Below, in pieces: positions 1,441 through 10,050 of a stretch of DNA of 10,051 nt. Every line of letters begins with the position of its first letter. The first letter of the stretch is position 1. Made by a program: the position numbers and the translations under genes. Source of the stretch: Pseudomonadota bacterium (lineage in GTDB: Bacteria; Pseudomonadota; Alphaproteobacteria; Acetobacterales; Acetobacteraceae); contig JAJZEG010000083.1 of assembly GCA_021828605.1 (NCBI GenBank), positions 1 through 10,051 on the forward strand. Reading direction: 5' to 3'. Below the pieces are notes generated by a model. The model was not told where the DNA came from. It searched no databases and saw only the letters and a program-made list of their open reading frames with translations.

Positions 1441-3216
1441 ATGAAAATGACCACTGAAGAAGCCTTCGTGAAGGTGCTGCAAATGCATGGCATCGATCAG
1501 GCATTCGGCATTATCGGCTCGGCCTTTATGCCGATCTCGGATTTGTTTCCCCAAGCCGGGATTACGTTTTGGGACGTCGCGCATGAAACCAATGGCGGCA
1601 TGATCTGCGACGGCTATACCCGCTCGACCGGCAAAATGGGCATGGTAATCGCCCAAAACGGTCCGGGCGTGACCGGTTTCGTGACCGCGATCAAAACCGC
1701 CTATTGGAACCACACGCCGATGTTGCTGGTAACCCCGCAGGCGGCAAACCGCACCATTGGCCAAGGCGGCTTCCAGGAAGTCGAGCAGATGGCGCTGTTT
1801 CGCGATATGGTCTGTTATCAGGAAGAAGTCAGGGATGCCGCACGCGTGCCCGAAGTGCTGAACCGGGTGATCATGAAAGCGCGGCGTCTGTCCGCACCGG
1901 CACAAATCAACATCCCGCGTGATTACTGGACCCAGGTGATCGACGTGCCGTTGCCGGCCATTATCGAGTTTGAGCGCCCCGGCGGCGGCGCCAAAGCCAT
2001 CGCCGATGCGGCGGCCTTGTTATCGGCAGCCAAGTTTCCGGTTATTCTCTCCGGTGCTGGCGTGGTGCTCGCCAACGCGATTCCGGCTTGCGCCGCGCTC
2101 GCCGAACGGCTGGATGCGCCGGTTTGTAATAACTACCAACATAATGATAGTTTCCATGGCAGCCACCGCCTTGCGGTCGGACCGCTCGGTTATAACGGCT
2201 CCAAAGCCGCGATGGAACTGATCGCCAAAGCCGATGTGGTGTTGGCCCTCGGCACCCGGCTCAACCCGTTCTCCACCCTGCCGGGTTACGGCATCGATTA
2301 CTGGCCGAAGACCGCAAAAGTCATTCAGGTCGACATTAATGCCGATCGGATTGGCCTGACCAAACCGGTCGCAATCGGCATTTGCGGTGATGCCAAATTG
2401 GTGGCCGAAGCGATTTTGGCGCAATTATCGCCCAGCGCCGGTGATCATCAACGCGATGACCGACAATCGCTGATTCACCAGACCAAATCAGCCTGGTTGC
2501 AAACCTTGTCGAGCCTGGATCATGAGGATGATGATCAAGGTACCAGCTGGAACAGTGACGCGCGCGCGCGCGATCCGAACCGGATGTCACCGCGCCAGGC
2601 CTGGCGCGCCATTCAGAGCGGCTTGCCGCGTGATGCGATCATATCGAGCGATATTGGCAATAACTGCGCCATCGGCAACGCCTATCCCACTTTCGAACAA
2701 GGCCGGAAATATCTGGCCCCTGGCCTGTTCGGTCCGTGCGGCTATGGTTTTCCCTCGATCATCGGTGCAAAAATCGGCAATCCCACCATCCCCTGTGTCG
2801 GTTTCGCGGGCGATGGCGCGTTTGGTATTTCGATGAATGAAATGAGTTCGATTGGCCGCAGCGAATGGCCCGCGATCACCATGATCATTTTCCGCAATTA
2901 CCAATGGGGTGCTGAGAAGCGCAACACCACTCTATGGTATGATAATAATTTCATCGGCACCGAGCTCGACCCTGAACTGAGCTACGCCAAAGTCGCTGAG
3001 GGATGCGGCCTGAAAGGCGTCACCGTTAGCACCCAACGCGAATTGACCGAGGCGTTGCGCACCGCCTGCGACGCGCAGGCGCAGGGGGTCACCACCTTCA
3101 TCGAGGTCATTCTGAACCAGGAGCTGGGCGAGCCGTTCCGCCGCGACGCGATGAAAAAACCGGTGAAAGTTGCCGGCATCAACCGCGATGACATGCGCCC
3201 GCAACTCGGGAGTTAA
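1441..3216 (+). CDS. xsc: Sulfoacetaldehyde acetyltransferase Xsc (thiamine diphosphate enzyme)
   Basis: Cytoplasmic enzyme that converts sulfoacetaldehyde plus phosphate into acetyl phosphate and sulfite (EC 2.3.3.15), the desulfonating step in catabolism of taurine, isethionate and sulfoacetate. The 591 residues match the usual Xsc length. The N-terminal pyrimidine-binding domain carries the catalytic Glu49 in AHETNGG and the stretch IAQNGPGVTGF. A central domain contains LALGTRLNPFSTLPGYG. The C-terminal diphosphate-binding domain has GDG at 457-459 and Asn486, the ThDP/Mg motif. Long blocks including SPRQAWRAI, NNCAIGNAYPTFEQGRKYLA, YQWGAEKRNTTLWYDNNF and the ending EPFRRDAMKKPVKVAGI are Xsc-like rather than acetolactate synthase-like. 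The gene is intact, with ATG start and TAA stop. A sulfonate importer follows; phosphotransacetylase, sulfite export and sulfite oxidation genes are not in the window. Confidence 0.96.
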   Translation: MKMTTEEAFVKVLQMHGIDQAFGIIGSAFMPISDLFPQAGITFWDVAHETNGGMICDGYTRSTGKMGMVIAQNGPGVTGFVTAIKTAYWNHTPMLLVTPQAANRTIGQGGFQEVEQMALFRDMVCYQEEVRDAARVPEVLNRVIMKARRLSAPAQINIPRDYWTQVIDVPLPAIIEFERPGGGAKAIADAAALLSAAKFPVILSGAGVVLANAIPACAALAERLDAPVCNNYQHNDSFHGSHRLAVGPLGYNGSKAAMELIAKADVVLALGTRLNPFSTLPGYGIDYWPKTAKVIQVDINADRIGLTKPVAIGICGDAKLVAEAILAQLSPSAGDHQRDDRQSLIHQTKSAWLQTLSSLDHEDDDQGTSWNSDARARDPNRMSPRQAWRAIQSGLPRDAIISSDIGNNCAIGNAYPTFEQGRKYLAPGLFGPCGYGFPSIIGAKIGNPTIPCVGFAGDGAFGISMNEMSSIGRSEWPAITMIIFRNYQWGAEKRNTTLWYDNNFIGTELDPELSYAKVAEGCGLKGVTVSTQRELTEALRTACDAQAQGVTTFIEVILNQELGEPFRRDAMKKPVKVAGINRDDMRPQLGS

Positions 3217-3234
3217 CCAACAGCCCAAACTTAA

Positions 3235-3292
3235 CTGCACCAGCCTCGCCTCACCACTATGACACCCCAATCTGGTGCAGGGGCTGGTGCAG
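3235..3292 (+). repeat. 11-base inverted repeat downstream of xsc
   Basis: CTGCACCAGCC at 3235-3245 is perfectly complementary to GGCTGGTGCAG at 3282-3292, separated by 36 bases. Because the right arm belongs to a 12-base tandem repeat, the left arm can also pair, a little less well, with the neighbouring copy, so two alternative stems are possible. It starts 19 bases after the xsc stop and could protect the 3' end of the xsc message or reduce read-through into the transporter genes. Confidence 0.45.
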
Positions 3293-3302
3293 GGGCTGGT
3301 GC
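3272..3302. repeat. 12-base tandem repeat, 2.6 copies
   Basis: The unit CTGGTGCAGGGG occurs at 3272-3283 and 3284-3295 without mismatch, followed by a partial copy CTGGTGC at 3296-3302. It is non-coding. The exact duplication suggests recent slippage. The 3' edge also forms a compact hairpin, GGGGC at 3292-3296 with GCCCC at 3301-3305 around a TGGT loop, followed by a run of A rather than T. Confidence 0.7.
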
Positions 3303-3355
3303 CCCAAAAAACTTATGCTGGACGCATGATCGCTTTCCTGCCAAATCTTGCCCGA

Positions 3356-3374
3356 GGCTGATCCTGCATCAGCC
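3356..3374 (+). promoter_or_regulatory. Hairpin abutting the tauC-like ribosome binding site
   Basis: GGCTGAT at 3356-3362 and ATCAGCC at 3368-3374 form a perfect 7-base stem with a 5-base loop CCTGC. Outer pairing of CCC at 3351-3353 with GGG at 3375-3377 is possible across a two-base bulge and would take up part of the ribosome binding site GGGAGA at 3375-3380, which lies 8 bases before the ATG at 3389. This could modulate translation of the permease; no direct evidence of regulation is visible. Confidence 0.4.
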
Positions 3375-3388
3375 GGGAGATTTGCAGC

Positions 3389-4282
3389 ATGGATGTGAAT
3401 GCTCATCGCAACCCGACTGGAGAGATTAACCGGATCGAACGCCAAGCGGCGACCGGGCCGAACGCCCTCATCGATACCGCCTCAAGCGTTGACGGCGCAC
3501 CGCCCCGCAGCGCCTGGCGCCATGTATCGCGCCTGACCACGATGTTGGTGATGCTGGCAACGCTGGCCCTCTGGCAAATCGTCAGCGATTTGCATATTTT
3601 TCCGCCCATCGCTTTGCCGTCGCCGATCATGGTTTGGGCCGCCTTTACCCGCTTGTCGCTCGCCGGATATGGCGGACACTCCTTGCTCGGCGATATCTGG
3701 ATCAGTTCCGCGCGAATCGGTATCGGCTTCGCTGGCGCGGTGGTGATTGGCGTGCCCGTCGGCTTGTTGATGGCCCGGATTAATCTGATTTTTCGAGTGA
3801 TTGATCCGTTCCTGCAATTTGTTCGTCCCGTGCCGCCATTGGCCTATATTCCGCTGCTGGTGGTCTGGTTCGGTATTGGCGAATTGCCGAAAATTCTGCT
3901 GATTCTGATCGGCACGATACCGGTGATCATTATCGGCACCATGTCCGGCGTCAAAGCCACGCCATCGCTGCGCATTTCTGTCGCCAAAACACTGGGGGCC
4001 AGCGAGAGCCAAATTTTTCGCCATGTGATCCTGCCCTCGGCCCTGCCCGAAATATTCACCGCGATGCGCGTGGGCATTGGCGTCGCCTGGACCTGTCTGG
4101 TCGCAGCCGAATTGATCGCCGCCAGCGAAGGGCTCGGCTGGCTGGTGCAATATGCCGGGCAGGCACTGCAAGTCGCCATCGTTATTGTTGGAATCATCAT
4201 CATCGGCATTCTCGGTTATGCGATGGAACTGATGATCCGCCTGCTCGAACGCTGGGCGGTGCCATGGCATGGCCGTGGCTGA
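3389..4282 (+). CDS. tauC: Taurine/sulfonate ABC transporter permease (TauC/SsuC type)
   Basis: Inner-membrane subunit of an ABC importer that passes the sulfonate delivered by the periplasmic binding protein into the cytoplasm. The 297 residues contain about six hydrophobic segments (roughly 48-66, 112-130, 150-163, 168-187, 229-246 and 262-281) in a BPD_transp_1 fold. The motif PVPPLAYIPLLVVWFGIGE at 147-165 is characteristic of TauC/SsuC permeases. The coupling-helix (EAA) loop is at about 199-218, reading AKTLGASESQIFRHVILPSA, with the conserved Gly at 203. About 45 hydrophilic residues precede the first membrane segment, longer than I would expect from E. coli TauC, but the GGGAGA ribosome binding site supports this start. 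The proximity to xsc favours taurine, isethionate or another C2 sulfonate; family membership is firmer than substrate. Confidence 0.88.
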   Translation: MDVNAHRNPTGEINRIERQAATGPNALIDTASSVDGAPPRSAWRHVSRLTTMLVMLATLALWQIVSDLHIFPPIALPSPIMVWAAFTRLSLAGYGGHSLLGDIWISSARIGIGFAGAVVIGVPVGLLMARINLIFRVIDPFLQFVRPVPPLAYIPLLVVWFGIGELPKILLILIGTIPVIIIGTMSGVKATPSLRISVAKTLGASESQIFRHVILPSALPEIFTAMRVGIGVAWTCLVAAELIAASEGLGWLVQYAGQALQVAIVIVGIIIIGILGYAMELMIRLLERWAVPWHGRG

Positions 4283-4330
4283 CCTGAATTTTCGCCGATA
4301 TTTTCGTCTCGAAACTGGAAAGGACTCGCT

Positions 4331-5353
4331 ATGTCGATAATGACCCATAAATCAGTGATGACGGTCGGCAGCATGATCGGCGCCACCATGATCGCGCTCA
4401 GCGGTATCGGCTGGGCGGGGCAGCCCAACGTGACCATCGGTTATGAAAATAACGGCGCCGACCCCTATATGGTGACCCAGGAACGCGGCGCGTTCCAAAA
4501 AGCAATCCCCGGCCATGTTCATCTGAAGTTTTTTGCCTCCGGCCCCGCAGCCATGAGCGCGCTCGCCTCCAACAGCCTGCAATTCATGTGCGGGCTTGGC
4601 GTGCCGCCTTTTGTCGAGGCGATTTCGCACGGGCTGCCGCTCACCATTATTTACAACCAGGAGCGCTACTCAACAGGGGCGGGCATTGTGGTGCGTCCGG
4701 GTGCGGGCATTAAAACCATCGCCGACCTTAAGGGCAAAAAAATCGCCATTGTCGTTGGCTCGCAATCCTCCTTCGAATTAGCGACGTTCCTCGCCGCCGC
4801 CCATGTGCCTCATGCCAGCGTGCGCCAGGTCAACATGTCACCGCCCGACATGCTGATCGCGTGGCGCACCAAGGATATCAATGCGGCAATCGTTTGGGAT
4901 CCGGTGCTGAATTCGCTGCAAGCGCTGGGCGCACGGGTCCTGAAAACCGATGCCGACCTGCCCGCAACGGCAACCTCCTATAATATTTGTGTGGCTGATA
5001 CTCAGTGGGTCAATAAACATCCAAAAATCGCGACCGATTTTGTCAAAGCGATGAATGAAGGAGTCGCCTATACCAATGCCCACCCCAACAAAGCGTTAGT
5101 TTTGATGGCGAAGGCCTCAGGCGTCACCCTGCCAATCGCGAAAACCGAACTTTCTGGCTATAAAATATTTAATAGCAAAGCCCAACTCACCCCAAATGTT
5201 CTTGGCACCAAGGCGGCATCAACCCCATCCGCTACCGAACAAACCGTGATCAATACCGCAAAAGTCCTGCTGAAATCAGGACAAATTGACAATATGCCGC
5301 GCAATCCCGCCGCCGCCGTTGATCCAAAATTCGCCGCAGCCGCCGTGAAATAG
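4331..5353 (+). CDS. tauA: Taurine/sulfonate ABC transporter periplasmic binding protein (TauA type)
   Basis: Periplasmic receptor that captures the sulfonate and delivers it to the permease. The 340 residues begin with a Sec signal peptide: Lys7, a hydrophobic core around 12-26, and a likely cleavage after Ala29 in GWA. No lipobox cysteine is seen. The mature part resembles TauA/SsuA (NMT1-like, type II binding fold): VTIGYENNGADPYMV at the start, FFASGPAAMSALASNSLQF, then DLKGKKIAI, and SPPDMLIAWRTKDINAAIVW followed by DPVLNSLQALG, which parallels the taurine-binding family motif. The ribosome binding site AAAGGA at 4319-4324 is 6 bases before the ATG. It sits between permease and ATPase genes, an order (C-A-B) different from the E. 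coli tauABCD order. Taurine, isethionate and short alkanesulfonates cannot be told apart from sequence alone. Confidence 0.88.
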   Translation: MSIMTHKSVMTVGSMIGATMIALSGIGWAGQPNVTIGYENNGADPYMVTQERGAFQKAIPGHVHLKFFASGPAAMSALASNSLQFMCGLGVPPFVEAISHGLPLTIIYNQERYSTGAGIVVRPGAGIKTIADLKGKKIAIVVGSQSSFELATFLAAAHVPHASVRQVNMSPPDMLIAWRTKDINAAIVWDPVLNSLQALGARVLKTDADLPATATSYNICVADTQWVNKHPKIATDFVKAMNEGVAYTNAHPNKALVLMAKASGVTLPIAKTELSGYKIFNSKAQLTPNVLGTKAASTPSATEQTVINTAKVLLKSGQIDNMPRNPAAAVDPKFAAAAVK

Positions 5354-5358
5354 ACCGA

Positions 5359-6099
5359 ATGCCGATTATCATCGACCATGTCAGCAAGGATTTCGATGCA
5401 TTCCGCGCCCTCGATGATGTTTCGCTGACCATCGATGACGGCAGTTTCGTGACCATCCTGGGCTCATCAGGGTGCGGCAAATCGACCTTGCTCAACCTGA
5501 TCGCCGGCCTCGCATTTCCCACGCAAGGTCGGCTCACCCTCGATGGTGTCACCGTGACCAAACCGGGCCCCGACCGGGTGGTGGTGTTTCAGCAACCCGG
5601 TCTCTACCCGTGGCTGTCGCTGCGCGATAGCATTGCCTTTGGCCTGCGCATGCAATCACGCGCACGATCAATCGATTGGCGTCGCGTTGATGAACTTATC
5701 GAGATTATCGGCCTGCGCGGCTTTGAGCAGCACCGGCCCTACGAATTATCCGGCGGCATGCAACAGCGCGTGGCCATCGCGCGCGCGCTGGTGATGGCGC
5801 CGCGCGTCTTGCTGATGGACGAGCCGTTTGGCGCACTCGATGCCCAAACCCGCCACACCATGCAGCAATTTCTGCTCGATTTGTGGGACCGGATCAAAGC
5901 AACCATCGTCTTTATCACCCACGATATCGACGAAGCGATTCTCCTCGCCGATCGTTTGGTGGTGATGAGCGCCCGCCCGGGGCGGATTGCCTTGGAGACC
6001 ACCGTGCCCCTCGCGCGCCCGCGCCATTGGGACATGTCGCTTGAGCCCGCTTTCCTCGATCTCAAGCGCCAGGCCATGGAGATTCTTAGCGCGCGATGA
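5359..6099 (+). CDS. tauB: Taurine/sulfonate ABC transporter ATP-binding subunit (TauB/SsuB type)
   Basis: Cytoplasmic ATPase that powers the importer. All ABC motifs are present in the 246 residues: Walker A GSSGCGKST at 35-43, Q-loop Gln78 in VVVFQQPGLYPWLS, signature LSGGMQQR at 130-137, Walker B VLLMDEPFGALD with catalytic Glu155, and the H-loop His188 in FITHDIDEAI. The Q-loop sequence and the ending, SARPGRIALE and onward, are typical of TauB/SsuB. It starts only 5 bases after the binding-protein stop with no clear Shine-Dalgarno sequence, so translation is probably coupled to tauA. Its last 14 bases overlap the end of the convergent amidase gene. SsuB-type and nitrate-type ATPases are close relatives; the genetic setting next to xsc decides the call. 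Confidence 0.92.
   Translation: MPIIIDHVSKDFDAFRALDDVSLTIDDGSFVTILGSSGCGKSTLLNLIAGLAFPTQGRLTLDGVTVTKPGPDRVVVFQQPGLYPWLSLRDSIAFGLRMQSRARSIDWRRVDELIEIIGLRGFEQHRPYELSGGMQQRVAIARALVMAPRVLLMDEPFGALDAQTRHTMQQFLLDLWDRIKATIVFITHDIDEAILLADRLVVMSARPGRIALETTVPLARPRHWDMSLEPAFLDLKRQAMEILSAR
6086..6099. other. Tail-to-tail overlap of the two convergent operons
   Basis: The TGA of the TauB-like gene (6097-6099, + strand) and the TAA of the amidase (6088-6086, - strand) lie within each other's coding sequence, so the last 14 bases are shared. There is no room for a conventional terminator between them; transcripts from both sides must overlap unless one ends inside the opposing gene. Confidence 0.85.
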
Positions 6100-7267
6100 C
6101 ACCATGATCAACGAAACTCCGCGCCAGCGCCAATAACGCTTGATCGCGCCCGGGCGCTGCGACCAAGGATAACCCAACCGGACAACCCTCGCTCATCCCC
6201 GCTGGAATGCTGATTTCCGGCAGCCCGGCCAGTCCGGCAATCGCGGTAACATTCATGGTCCTGCGTCTAACATGATCCAACGTCGTCCGAGCCGCATCAC
6301 GGCGCGGCGCGATGCACGGGCTCGACGGGAAAGCCAGCACCGCGCCATCGGCGAGCAGCGCCAGGACCTGCGCGCGAAACGCCTCGCGATTAAGCCGCGC
6401 GTCGCGCACCTCCGCCACGCTCACCCGCGATGCGCCCTGCAAGCGGGTTGCGGTGATCTCCGCCATGTCTGGCTGATGCGCCTCCAGCCACGGGCCGAGC
6501 GACTGCCACGCCTCGCGGCCATGGATCAATGCTTGGGTGGTTTGCAAATCATCAAGTCCGCGCGACCAAAGAACCAAATCGCGCATTGGATAACCGGCGG
6601 CAGCAATCCGGTCGCATACCGCGCCAATCACCGAAGCAACCGCCGGATCGGCATTATCGAACGCATCGCGCACGAGAATAATTTCGCCCCGCAGCGTCGG
6701 GCTGGTCGGCAGCAACGCCGCGCCGATCCTCTGCATCGTTGCGGCATCACGCGCAAACCACCCGGCCACATCAAGGCTCGGCACATAACGCGCCGCCCCG
6801 GCCAGGCTCAGCAAGCCGTAGCTTGGCCGCAGCCCGTACAAGCCGCAATAGCTCGCCGGAATTCGGACCGACCCGCCGGTGTCAGACCCGATCCCAATCG
6901 CCGCGCGCCCTGACGCGACCGCACTGGCGGAACCGGACGATGAACCGCCCGGCAATCGGTCAAGCGCCGCCGGATTGCGCGGGGTGCCATACCACTGATT
7001 TTGGCCTTCCAACCCAAAGGTAAACTCAACGGTTACGGTTTTACCAATAATGCGCGCACCGGCCTCGCGCAGCCTGCTCACAATCGGCGCATCACACAGC
7101 GCGGGCGGGTGCAACCGCGCCCAGGTCGCATTGCCAAAACTGGTGATGGTGCCGCCAACATCGAACACGTCCTTGATCACCGCATCCAAACCCGCTAACG
7201 GACCGTTCGGCTCGCCCGGCAAATCAAGGCTTGCCATCATTCCATCATTGGCGTCGTACAGATTCAT
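6086..7267 (-). CDS. Amidase signature family hydrolase, substrate unknown
   Basis: Probable cytoplasmic amide hydrolase of 393 residues. The Lys-cisSer-Ser triad is complete: Lys32 in IKDVFDVGG, cis-Ser109 in PGGSSSGSA, and nucleophile Ser133 in GSDTGGSVRIPASYCG. The following GLRPSYG is also typical. It is shorter than the 450-500 residues of GatA; no gatB or gatC is nearby, so a role in tRNA-dependent amidation is unlikely. Relatives include AtzE/AtzF-type, malonamidase-type and indoleacetamide-type amidases, and sequence does not choose among them. It is the last gene of the minus-strand operon, 45 bases after the GMC oxidoreductase stop, with only a weak AAGG three bases before the ATG. 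It might release a sulfonated amine or other product that feeds the neighbouring pathway; this is speculation. Confidence 0.88.
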   Translation of the reverse strand: MNLYDANDGMMASLDLPGEPNGPLAGLDAVIKDVFDVGGTITSFGNATWARLHPPALCDAPIVSRLREAGARIIGKTVTVEFTFGLEGQNQWYGTPRNPAALDRLPGGSSSGSASAVASGRAAIGIGSDTGGSVRIPASYCGLYGLRPSYGLLSLAGAARYVPSLDVAGWFARDAATMQRIGAALLPTSPTLRGEIILVRDAFDNADPAVASVIGAVCDRIAAAGYPMRDLVLWSRGLDDLQTTQALIHGREAWQSLGPWLEAHQPDMAEITATRLQGASRVSVAEVRDARLNREAFRAQVLALLADGAVLAFPSSPCIAPRRDAARTTLDHVRRRTMNVTAIAGLAGLPEISIPAGMSEGCPVGLSLVAAPGRDQALLALARSFVDHGVIAR

Positions 7268-7312
7268 CAGCCTTGTCCCGTCATGAGGTCGAGTTTATCC
7301 AAACTGGATTGA

Positions 7313-8932
7313 TCACCGGTCAGCCAGAATCAGATCAGACGCCTTTTCCGCAATCATGATGGTGGGCGCATTGGTATTGCCTGAAACCAAGGTCGGCATC
7401 ACCGAGGCGTCCACCACCCGCAATCCAGCAATCCCATGAACCCGCAAGCGGGGATCGGTCACCGCCCGATCATCAATGCCCATTTTGCAGGTGCCCACCG
7501 GATGGTAAATCGTGGTCGCCGTGCGGCGCGCCGCCTCTAACAACGAGTCGTCACTCTCACAGGCCGCACCGGGAACCAATTCGCTTTTGACAAACCTCGA
7601 GAGCGGTTCTGTGTTCGCGAGGCGCCGACCCAGGCGCATCCCGGCCACCAGCGTTGCGCAATCGGTGTGGGTCGCCAAATAATTTGGGTGGATTGCCGGA
7701 TTGACGAAAGGGTCCGGGTTGATGGTTGCCAAATACCCCCGACTTTCCGGGCGAAGTTGACAAACCGAGGCGGTAAACGCCGAGTAACGATGCAAGCCCT
7801 CGCCCGGCGAATCCGATGAGAGGGGTTGGATATGAAACTGGATATCCGGCAAATCGAGCCCTGGCGCAGAGCGGGCGAAAATACAAACCTGGCTCGCCCC
7901 CATGCTCATCGGGCCGCGCCGAAACAGGAGGTATTCGAGGCCAATTTTTGCTTTCAAGAGCGGGTTATTGACCTCATCATTCAAGGTCGGTCGGGTCGAG
8001 GCATAAACCAGCCGCGCCTGCAAATGATCCTGCAAATTTTCGCCCACACCCGGCAGATCATGACAAACCGCAATCCCCGCTGCGCTCAACCGCGCACCGG
8101 GGCCGATGCCCGACAGCATCAATAAATGCGGCGAGTGAATCGCGCCCGCCGCCAGCAAAATCTCGGATCGCGCGCGGGCAACGCGCCGCCCGTTCGCACC
8201 CCGATAAACCAGGCCCGTCGCGCGCCGATCGGTCACCACCAAGCGCTCCGCTTGCGCCCCGGTTTTGATCACCAAATTACGCCGTTGCCGCGCTGGATTC
8301 AAATAGGCCACAGCCGCACTGCATCGGCGCCCATTTTTGGCTGTTAGTTGAAAATAACCGGCCCCCTCTTGTTGCGCCCCGTTGAAATCCGCATTGCGCG
8401 GAATGCCGATTGCCGCCGCCGCATCGATAAACGCGTCCGATACATCCCGGCTCACCCGCATATCCGATACATAAAGCGGCCCGCCATCTCCGTGAAAGGC
8501 GTCGGCGCCGCGCTCATTATGCTCGGCCCGCCGGAAATAGGGCAGCACATCGTCATAGCTCCAGCCCACACATCCGCTTTGCCGCCATTGGTCATAATCG
8601 GCAGATTGCCCGCGAATATAAAGCAGCCCGTTGATCGAGCTTGATCCCCCCAGCACCCGCCCGCGCGGCCACGCCAGGCTGCGCCCGGCCAGACCCGGAT
8701 CAGGCTCGGTTTTCAGACACCAATCGGTGCGTGGGTTATGCATGGTTTTGAAATAGCCCACCGGGATATGGATCCAGGGATAACGGTCACGCGGCCCCGC
8801 TTCGAGCAGCAAAACTCGAATCGCCGGGTCCGCCGACAGGCGGTTTGCTAACACGCAGCCAGCAGAGCCTGCACCGACGATGATATAGTCAAATTCACCA
8901 TCATCGCCGATGTCCGACAGCTCAGCCTTCAT
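7313..8932 (-). CDS. GMC-family FAD-dependent alcohol dehydrogenase (choline dehydrogenase-like; candidate isethionate dehydrogenase)
   Basis: Flavoprotein oxidoreductase of 539 residues, usual for the glucose-methanol-choline family. The FAD-binding Rossmann motif is at 17-25 (IIVGAGSAG), followed by LLLEAGP at 41-47. The first family signature is around 90-109 (RGRVLGGSSSINGLLYIRG) and the second around 263-278 (GAIHSPHLLMLSGIGP). The catalytic pair is His477 in YHPVGTCKMG and Asn521 in SGNTNAPT. There is no signal peptide. The family oxidises primary alcohols to aldehydes, choline being one substrate. The ATG overlaps the stop of the upstream transporter gene (ATGA), so the two are translationally coupled. 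Because Xsc consumes sulfoacetaldehyde and the transporter and dehydrogenase are paired, oxidation of isethionate to sulfoacetaldehyde is an attractive guess. Choline or another alcohol remains possible, though no betaine aldehyde dehydrogenase gene is seen. Confidence 0.9.
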   Translation of the reverse strand: MKAELSDIGDDGEFDYIIVGAGSAGCVLANRLSADPAIRVLLLEAGPRDRYPWIHIPVGYFKTMHNPRTDWCLKTEPDPGLAGRSLAWPRGRVLGGSSSINGLLYIRGQSADYDQWRQSGCVGWSYDDVLPYFRRAEHNERGADAFHGDGGPLYVSDMRVSRDVSDAFIDAAAAIGIPRNADFNGAQQEGAGYFQLTAKNGRRCSAAVAYLNPARQRRNLVIKTGAQAERLVVTDRRATGLVYRGANGRRVARARSEILLAAGAIHSPHLLMLSGIGPGARLSAAGIAVCHDLPGVGENLQDHLQARLVYASTRPTLNDEVNNPLLKAKIGLEYLLFRRGPMSMGASQVCIFARSAPGLDLPDIQFHIQPLSSDSPGEGLHRYSAFTASVCQLRPESRGYLATINPDPFVNPAIHPNYLATHTDCATLVAGMRLGRRLANTEPLSRFVKSELVPGAACESDDSLLEAARRTATTIYHPVGTCKMGIDDRAVTDPRLRVHGIAGLRVVDASVMPTLVSGNTNAPTIMIAEKASDLILADR

Positions 8933-10050
8933 CGATACTCAACCGCCTCCAGCGGCGTGGGCGCTTTGAAGCGCATCGCCATCACCGAGGCAAAACTGAT
9001 CAGCCCAACCACAATCATGTAAATCACCACATACCAGGGCGCGCCATGATCATAGGCCAGCAAGGCCGAGGCGATCAGCGGCGTTAAACCGCTCGCGTAA
9101 ATACCGCTCACCTGATAGGCGAACGACACCCCGGTATAGCGGATTTTGGCGTCAAACTGGCTGGCAAACAACGAGGATTCGGTGCCGTACACCAGCGGGT
9201 AGAACAGCGAGAACGGCACGATAATCGCCACTAACACCACCCAGTGATTGGTCTGGCCGTAGGCCTGCATCAAGGCGAATGACGCAACCGAACTCACCGC
9301 AATCAGCAAAGCCCCGGTGGCAAATACCCGCCGCATGCCATACCGATCTGCAAGGCGTCCCGCGATTAAAATGAAGGGTAGCATGAACGCCGAGGACAGC
9401 ACCACAGCCAGCAAGGCAAAGCCGCGGGTCAAATGCAGACTATTCACCACATAGGCGATGATGAACACACCAAACACGTTAAAGCAGGCCCCTTCGACAT
9501 AGCGCGCGCCAAGGGTCAGCAAGACCGAACGCGGCGCGGTGCGGATCATTTCCACCACCGGCACCGCAACGATTTTGTCGGTGGCTTGCACCCGCAGGAA
9601 ATCCGGCGTTTCCATGATCCGCAGACGCACAAAAATGCCAATAATCACCAGCACCGCGCTGAGCATGAACGCCACACGCCAGCCCCACAGCATGAACGCG
9701 CTATTGGGCAAATAATTGAGCAAGCCAACCACACCGGCACTCGACATCAGCCCAAGCGGCACACCCAGCTGCGGCCAACTGCCGAAAAAGCTTCTTTGCG
9801 CCGGTGGCGCGTGCTCGATGGCCATCAACACCGCCCCGCCCCACTCACCGCCAATGCCGATGCCCTGCAAAATCCGCAGGAACAACAGCAATAACGGTGC
9901 GGCAATACCAATCGACGCTGCGCCGGGCAGCAAGCCGATCAAAAACGTCGCGCCGCCCATGATCATCAGCGTCAAGACCAAAATTGTTTTGCGGCCGATC
10001 CGATCACCGAAATGGCCGAAAATAATCCCGCCGATCGGCCGCAAAATGAA
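8929..10050 (-). CDS. MHS-type major facilitator transporter, N terminus outside window
   Basis: Inner-membrane proton symporter of the metabolite:H+ symporter (MHS) branch of the MFS, the group of ProP, KgtP and ShiA. The visible 373 residues begin in frame at the window edge (FILRPIGGIIFGHFGDRIGRK), so an apparent TTG start at 10044 is not real; about the first two helices are missing. GHFGDRIGRK is the MFS motif A between helices 2 and 3. RILQGIGIGGEWGGAVLMAIEHAPPAQR and the following SWPQLGVPLGL are strongly MHS-like. A second, weaker motif A copy, GRLADRYGMRR, marks the second half. Known MHS substrates are organic anions or zwitterions, so a sulfonate, a betaine or a carboxylate is plausible. 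It heads the visible part of the operon and overlaps the GMC gene by 4 bases. Confidence 0.9.
   Translation of the reverse strand, partial: FILRPIGGIIFGHFGDRIGRKTILVLTLMIMGGATFLIGLLPGAASIGIAAPLLLLFLRILQGIGIGGEWGGAVLMAIEHAPPAQRSFFGSWPQLGVPLGLMSSAGVVGLLNYLPNSAFMLWGWRVAFMLSAVLVIIGIFVRLRIMETPDFLRVQATDKIVAVPVVEMIRTAPRSVLLTLGARYVEGACFNVFGVFIIAYVVNSLHLTRGFALLAVVLSSAFMLPFILIAGRLADRYGMRRVFATGALLIAVSSVASFALMQAYGQTNHWVVLVAIIVPFSLFYPLVYGTESSLFASQFDAKIRYTGVSFAYQVSGIYASGLTPLIASALLAYDHGAPWYVVIYMIVVGLISFASVMAMRFKAPTPLEAVEYR

Follow-up and report, generated by a model that had tools for sequence, protein, structure and literature searches.

Two convergent gene runs around xsc

The window analysed here, a stretch of 10,051 nucleotides that appears to be the whole of contig JAJZEG010000083.1 (genes beyond its ends lie outside our view), comes from an Acidiphilium-like alphaproteobacterium and carries a putative C2-sulfonate locus built around xsc, the gene for sulfoacetaldehyde acetyltransferase. 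The locus consists of two gene runs that meet tail to tail: a plus-strand run at 1441–6099, which holds xsc and a TauC-A-B-like importer, and a minus-strand run at 6086–10,050, which holds a symporter of the MHS family, a GMC-type alcohol dehydrogenase, and an amidase. All the genes that an earlier note on this DNA had assigned to two convergent runs were found where it had placed them and on the strands it had given, and its left boundary of the island was likewise correct, with the copper-type genes to the left of position 1441 falling outside.

The plus-strand run opens with xsc (1441–3216), which encodes a protein of 591 residues that scores 940 bits on the curated equivalog model TIGR03457 (cut-off 676) and 1015 bits on PRK07525 (cut-off 620). 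Its identity to copies in other genomes reaches 84%, with a second Xsc group at 44–48%, and, judged from its sequence, it is a clear member of the sulfoacetaldehyde acetyltransferase family. A TauC-like ABC permease (3389–4282), a TauA-like periplasmic binding protein (4331–5353), and a TauB-like ABC ATPase (5359–6099) follow on the same strand, and the ends of tauB and of the amidase gene (6086–7267, minus strand) share 14 bases. A gap of 45 bases separates the amidase gene from that for the GMC flavin alcohol dehydrogenase (7313–8932, minus strand), which in turn overlaps by 4 bases with the gene for the MHS-family MFS symporter (8929–10,050, minus strand), whose 5′ end is lost at the end of the contig.

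We judge it quite probable that this locus serves the aerobic dissimilation of C2 sulfonates and is composed of an isethionate module and Xsc, with the genes of each run possibly transcribed together. The MHS symporter, of the IseU type, would import isethionate, the GMC flavoprotein, of the IseJ type, would oxidize it to sulfoacetaldehyde, and Xsc, with thiamine diphosphate and phosphate, would split the sulfoacetaldehyde into sulfite and acetyl phosphate. The ABC importer, with its noncanonical TauA relative, may bring in a second sulfonate, either taurine or something closely similar, with a breakdown route that would likewise end at Xsc, the enzyme that would turn this second sulfonate into sulfoacetaldehyde not being on this contig.

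The GMC dehydrogenase and its symporter

The earlier note had proposed that the MHS and GMC proteins form a functional counterpart of IseU and IseJ, and the evidence from protein family, tree, and gene neighbourhood supports this proposal. The GMC protein (PF00732 and PF05199) has relatives of up to 89% identity, with 84% for Acidiphilium acidophilum. For a survey of its neighbourhoods, we kept 80 GMC loci among the matches listed and sought isethionate- or xsc-linked genes, hereafter tags, within 6 kb. At least one tag was present in 32 of the 80 loci (the TRAP gene iseK in 21, iseU in 8, xsc in 7, pta in 5, and a sulfite exporter in 5) and in 25 of the 55 loci whose flanks extend for 5 kb or more to either side. 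Tagged loci made up 17 of 24 at an identity of at least 60%, 13 of 48 at 55 to 60%, and 2 of 8 below that.

A Ruegeria plasmid displays the order IclR, TRAP large subunit, TRAP small subunit, TRAP binding protein, and GMC (59.5% identical to that of the window), which matches the iseR-M-L-K-J order in the Ruegeria pomeroyi gene list of PMC4334477. Paracoccus aminovorans carries IclR-MFS-GMC-xsc-sulfite exporter-pta, and Caballeronia NK8 carries xsc-pta-IclR-GMC-MFS. The adjacency MHS-GMC, with or without xsc, was seen again in Paracoccus, Sinorhizobium, Caballeronia, Pandoraea, Pseudomonas, and Variovorax, a recurrence across genera that argues for a layout that is more than chance.

Co-occurrence at the level of genomes points the same way. 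Our search for xsc took in 50 of the 80 GMC loci, held by 49 genomes, and 40 of these 49 genomes had an Xsc of at least 44% identity. We also drew one class sample of 385 alphaproteobacterial genomes centred on the genome G002, in which few candidates were scored per genome; it contained 26 genomes with the GMC (E ≤ 1e-195) and 46 with xsc (E ≤ 1e-140). The co-occurrence survey that the earlier note had suggested thus showed GMC-bearing genomes to be enriched for xsc, which was present in 13 of the 26 as compared to 33 of the 359 others (one-sided Fisher p = 6e-7, with the overlap counted by hand and shared ancestry ignored).

The symporter scores 302 bits on TIGR00883, below the cut-off of 443 for what is an incomplete protein, and matches PF07690 and PF00083. 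A match to it (E ≤ 1e-100, at most 5 candidates scored in each genome) was found in 3 of the 385 class-sample genomes, and all three have xsc (hypergeometric p = 0.0016) and an adjoining GMC that is 51–54% identical to that of the window. Among plasmid records with the MHS protein, 9 of 49 were read, including one (L200) first reached via its GMC; a GMC of 48–61% identity adjoins the MHS gene in 8 of these 9 loci, and 5 of the 9 have xsc within the stretch as well. An MFS symporter encoded beside an IseJ-type GMC, the feature by which we recognize IseU, is hence found in the window, in all three of these genomes, and in eight of the nine plasmid loci. Two of the Sinorhizobium loci contain genes that may not be intact: on pSymA of S. 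meliloti ml47 (L238:7127-8780), an IseJ-type GMC gene next to MFS-xsc-pta is broken up between two frames that overlap, where the table of the record lists no gene, and in S. medicae ml4 (L245:9498-10925), the longest open reading frame for the xsc of a tauABC-GMC-IseU-xsc-pta run has 475 residues.

An alternative reading takes the GMC protein for the choline dehydrogenase BetA and the minus-strand run for an osmoprotection operon. Its relatives are indeed often named choline dehydrogenase in databases, and, by a narrow margin (609 versus 605 bits), it clears PRK02106, a loose subfamily model named "choline dehydrogenase." On the BetA equivalog TIGR01810, however, it fails with 502 bits against a cut-off of 732 (E. 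coli BetA scores 1036), and 4 of 7 checked genomes with an IseJ-type GMC hold a separate BetA gene above that cut-off. For phylogenies, we left out matches shorter than 420 residues and merged identical or contained sequences, which gave 161 rows; a FastTree tree was computed from 157 of them (L100_3220, L104, L105, and L109 having been removed by hand) and an IQ-TREE tree from 59 hand-picked rows. In the latter, the five BetA rows form one clade with 100/100 support, and the window protein, as well as every tagged row, falls on the other side, so that the tree against BetA proposed in the earlier note places the window protein outside BetA with full support. The FastTree tree split the five BetA rows, together with one further row, from the remainder. 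Two alignment columns separate the groups as well. At residue 305, all five BetA rows have Glu, and 45 of the 46 tagged rows, the window among them, have Gln; at residue 307, the five BetA rows have Tyr, and all 46 tagged rows have Arg. The Glu at residue 305 is one that we take to correspond to Glu312 of choline oxidase. A role of that Glu312 appears in a reference title in PMC12839357. The model score, the tree, and the Glu/Gln column lead us to reject the assignment to BetA, to which we give next to no credence; the GMC protein is a flavoprotein distinct from choline dehydrogenase.

In the 59-row tree, the window GMC sits in a clade of its own of 11 rows (100/100). One member, from genome G284 (69% identity), has upstream of it genes for Xsc, TctA, a presumed TctB (a short open reading frame), an aldehyde dehydrogenase, and an ATP-grasp CoA ligase (L220:2-7024), a layout that is that of the sulfoacetate clusters as described in PMC12625764. 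The Xsc of G284 is cut by the contig end at 434 residues and scores 647 on PRK07525 (cut-off 620) and 642 on TIGR03457 (cut-off 676), and this truncated copy is the reason why G284 was scored as lacking xsc in the class sample. The sister GMC from genome G563 showed none of the G284-type neighbours among the 7 proteins scanned on its 11.8-kb contig; G563 carries an Xsc (47%) on a different contig.

A TauA-like importer with a different pocket

The earlier note had described the plus-strand transporter as a TauABC importer, and this description does not hold in its canonical sense. The predicted structure of the binding protein (predicted local distance difference test score, pLDDT, 88.8) finds E. 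coli TauA (6ssy) as its best match in the PDB. On the TauA equivalog TIGR01729, the protein nonetheless scores 132 bits against a cut-off of 304, as compared to 534 for E. coli TauA and 515 for S. medicae TauA. For the permease (PF00528), TauC is the closest model at 215 bits, below its cut-off of 342, and for the ATPase (PF00005), the TauB model gives 241 bits, below its cut-off of 357.

The difference extends to the ligand pocket. In E. coli TauA, the side chains that contact taurine are Gln30 at the sulfonate and Glu106, Thr132, and Asp205 at the amine end, as given in PMC6906117. The window protein has Glu39, Ala117, Gln145, and Asn218 in their place. Among the homologues listed (120 of 243 found), the Glu, Ala, and Gln occur in 120 of 120 and the Asn in 119 of 120, and the same pocket is present in 16 Burkholderiaceae loci and in Paraburkholderia phymatum. 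The S. medicae copy has the same four residues as E. coli TauA. In two Variovorax copies, the Glu and Thr are those of E. coli and Asp205 is replaced by Glu, the Gln position being uncovered in one of the two. Members of this Glu/Ala/Gln/Asn subfamily, to which the proteins of the window, of L265–L280, and of L239 belong, are often named taurine-binding in databases. Within it, an NQERY motif (residues 109–113) is invariant in 49 aligned members.

Among 170 Burkholderiaceae genomes, 16 contain the importer (E ≤ 1e-60), with permeases that are 63–78% identical to that of the window, and extra flanks were obtained for 13 of these 16 loci. Twelve of these 16 loci have xsc and pta on the same 19-kb stretch, and each of the 12 also encodes a small protein resembling SnoaL, an oxidoreductase of the DAO family (TauX/TauY-like), and a GMC that is 57–65% identical to that of the window. 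The gene soeA is present in 9 of the 12, and IseU was seen in 4, with the other stretches ending too early to exclude it. P. phymatum has all these parts plus a MocR-type regulator within about 35 kb. CobS/CobT-like AAA and VWA proteins were also observed near xsc-pta (L267, L269, L270, L272–L280, L241, and L248), in many cases between pta and the GMC gene. TauX is, as we assume, SnoaL-like. TauY is required for growth of S. meliloti on taurine according to PMC4254191, and the TauR regulons described in PMC5320631 hold TauXY, TauABC, Xsc, and GabP.

These settings suit the notion that the importer is an ordinary taurine importer and the plus strand a plain taurine operon with its deaminase encoded elsewhere: TauA is the best fold match of the binding protein, the Burkholderiaceae counterparts sit with TauX-like, TauY-like, and, in some cases, TauR-like genes and with xsc, and one of these loci (L268) has taurine-type genes beside the importer and no xsc. 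Against it stand the failed TauA equivalog, the replacement of all four contact residues, and the finding that neither of the taurine-deaminating enzymes Tpa and TauXY is encoded on the contig. We hold this notion to be a serious contender, if somewhat short of an even chance. A more tentative proposal, which we consider rather unlikely as a whole, is that the C-A-B importer represents a separate subfamily of ABC sulfonate importers with a rebuilt pocket that takes isethionate or another amine-free sulfonate; it would then be a third importer class feeding Xsc, beside IseU and TRAP, hidden in Acidiphilium and Burkholderiaceae by the label "taurine transporter." The ligand may be taurine, held by a pocket of another build, or another sulfonate.

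Combined loci are also found with a classical importer. S. medicae has a single run of classical tauABC, SnoaL, DAO, IclR, GMC, IseU, xsc, exporter, and pta, and, together with the Burkholderiaceae loci, this indicates that loci which combine taurine and isethionate genes around one Xsc occur repeatedly. The window offers a compact case of such a merged locus, without taurine-deaminating genes on the contig. The view put forward in the earlier note, that two import routes feed one desulfonation enzyme, finds support in that merged loci exist elsewhere; as put, it was supported only in part, since the ABC importer is no canonical TauABC and the contig encodes no taurine-deaminating enzyme. Within Acidiphilium, linkage was read from contigs of the same size, which give an indirect sign of GMC linked to TauA (P0009 with P0246, contig size 136021; P0006 with P0251, 35562) and of amidase linked to TauA (P0126 with P0242, 110664).

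Weighing the proposed isethionate pathway

Several observations count against the isethionate reading of the locus. As a sign against its proposal, the earlier note had named a GMC neighbourhood that is conserved in genomes lacking xsc, and such a picture is found in part: next to the 32 tagged loci, 48 of the 80 have no tag (30 among the 55 with flanks of 5 kb or more to either side), and a full-length xsc match is missing in 13 of the 26 class-sample genomes with the GMC. The ninth plasmid locus, from Cupriavidus pinatubonensis, has an MHS relative (49%) beside hpsN/hpsO and no GMC, which indicates that the transporter family carries more than one sulfonate and is not restricted to isethionate. 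Most untagged non-BetA rows also carry Gln305 (88 of 94) and Arg307 (90 of 94), so that these residues argue against choline and do not single out isethionate. In the 59-row tree, which contains no labelled IseJ, the window GMC lies outside the clade of the TRAP-linked Ruegeria rows, and IseU-linked rows are dispersed over the GMC tree, with 5 label changes and with Variovorax and Pseudomonas near the base. As the sequences compared include no labelled, characterized IseJ or IseU, the assignment rests on synteny. Against a fixed association of the importer with xsc, the Burkholderiaceae loci L265 and L266 have the closest permease (78%) and ATPase (80–81%), yet no xsc nearby, with the L265 importer lying beside prp genes; L271 has no tag, and L268 has its taurine-type genes and lacks xsc. 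Finally, the 10,051-nt contig holds no pta, sulfite exporter, or regulator.

Part of this evidence would fit a reading in which the GMC and MHS proteins act on a different hydroxylated compound (a further sulfonate, for instance dihydroxypropanesulfonate, or an alcohol of an unrelated kind) and in which their place next to xsc is accidental or marks an independent unit. The untagged relatives, which form clades inside the same GMC group, the shared residues 305 and 307, and the MHS relative next to the dihydroxypropanesulfonate genes hpsN/hpsO all lean this way. They are countered by the adjacency of IseJ-type GMC and MHS relatives in 8 of 9 plasmid loci (with xsc in 5) and in all 3 class-sample genomes, and by the G284 member of the window's own GMC clade, which is also located with Xsc. 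On balance, we find a different compound improbable, though by no means negligibly so, and retain isethionate as the probable substrate of the GMC dehydrogenase.

The amidase-signature hydrolase that ends the minus-strand run (PF01425; 397 bits on PRK08310, cut-off 391) looks like a lineage-specific addition. Across the 385 alphaproteobacterial genomes, in which no more than 4 candidates apiece were scored, its best match is 46% identical, and relatives were found at 84% in an Acidiphilium metagenome-assembled genome, at 66% in A. acidophilum, and at about 50–56% in Acidiphilium, Acidocella, and Falsiroseomonas. In A. acidophilum, the amidase P0128 and the GMC P0005 are on same-sized contigs (463104), which suggests that the two are linked; the amidase P0142 of Acidiphilium sp. 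AL (56%) is on a contig of another size (176716), which counts against linkage in Acidiphilium. A role as the N-acetyltaurine hydrolase NaaS was considered and, without a comparison of the two sequences, found unsupported: R. pomeroyi naaS is listed next to naaT, a putative metallochaperone gene, in PMC4334477, and the window protein is an amidase-signature enzyme. To the left of the island lie the C-terminal part of a CopA-type P-ATPase (2–1009) and a CopZ-like open reading frame of 65 residues, read by eye at about 1022–1219, both of which look unrelated. The window gave no Rfam match when searched with the gathering thresholds.

Among the known systems close to the window is the terrestrial IseU-IseJ-Xsc type, reportedly that of Cupriavidus necator H16, which shares with it an MFS symporter, a GMC, and Xsc and has equivalents in Paracoccus (including P. 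denitrificans), Caballeronia, and Sinorhizobium (including S. medicae). Beyond the parts of this type, the window contains an ABC importer and an amidase, and its genes form two convergent runs. IseJ itself is a membrane-bound flavin enzyme that works with Xsc, as stated in PMC6453916. The isethionate cluster of R. pomeroyi DSS-3 (iseJ, iseKLM, and iseR) likewise has a GMC-type dehydrogenase feeding Xsc, but with a TRAP importer and the IclR-type iseR beside iseJ. The window, in contrast, encodes an MHS symporter and lacks a regulator on its contig. Taurine loci of the type TauR-TauABC-TauXY-Xsc-Pta resemble the window in having a TauA-fold ABC importer beside xsc, and the Burkholderiaceae counterparts lie in such loci; the window differs in a binding protein that fails the TauA model and lacks the taurine contacts, and in having no deaminating enzyme on the contig. 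The likeness to sulfoacetate clusters with Xsc (SauS, SauCD, and a TTT importer) runs via the close GMC relative in G284, whereas none of their sulfoacetate genes is in the window.

The kind of pathway is already known, and the novelty lies in the variant importer and in how compactly the merged genes are laid out in an Acidiphilium-like host. We met no earlier account of sulfonate breakdown in Acidiphilium in the literature consulted, part of which was judged by titles and the opening lines of abstracts, a basis that does not establish absence from print. The locus would extend Xsc-based isethionate breakdown to an Acidiphilium-like bacterium, and it adds to the loci in which taurine-type and isethionate-type modules have merged around one Xsc, repeatedly and in different lineages. 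If the importer subfamily is mislabelled as taurine-binding, as it possibly is, gene-based estimates of taurine uptake may be wrong for these proteins. Automatic annotation would, moreover, call the GMC protein a choline dehydrogenase, another mislabel with ecological consequences.

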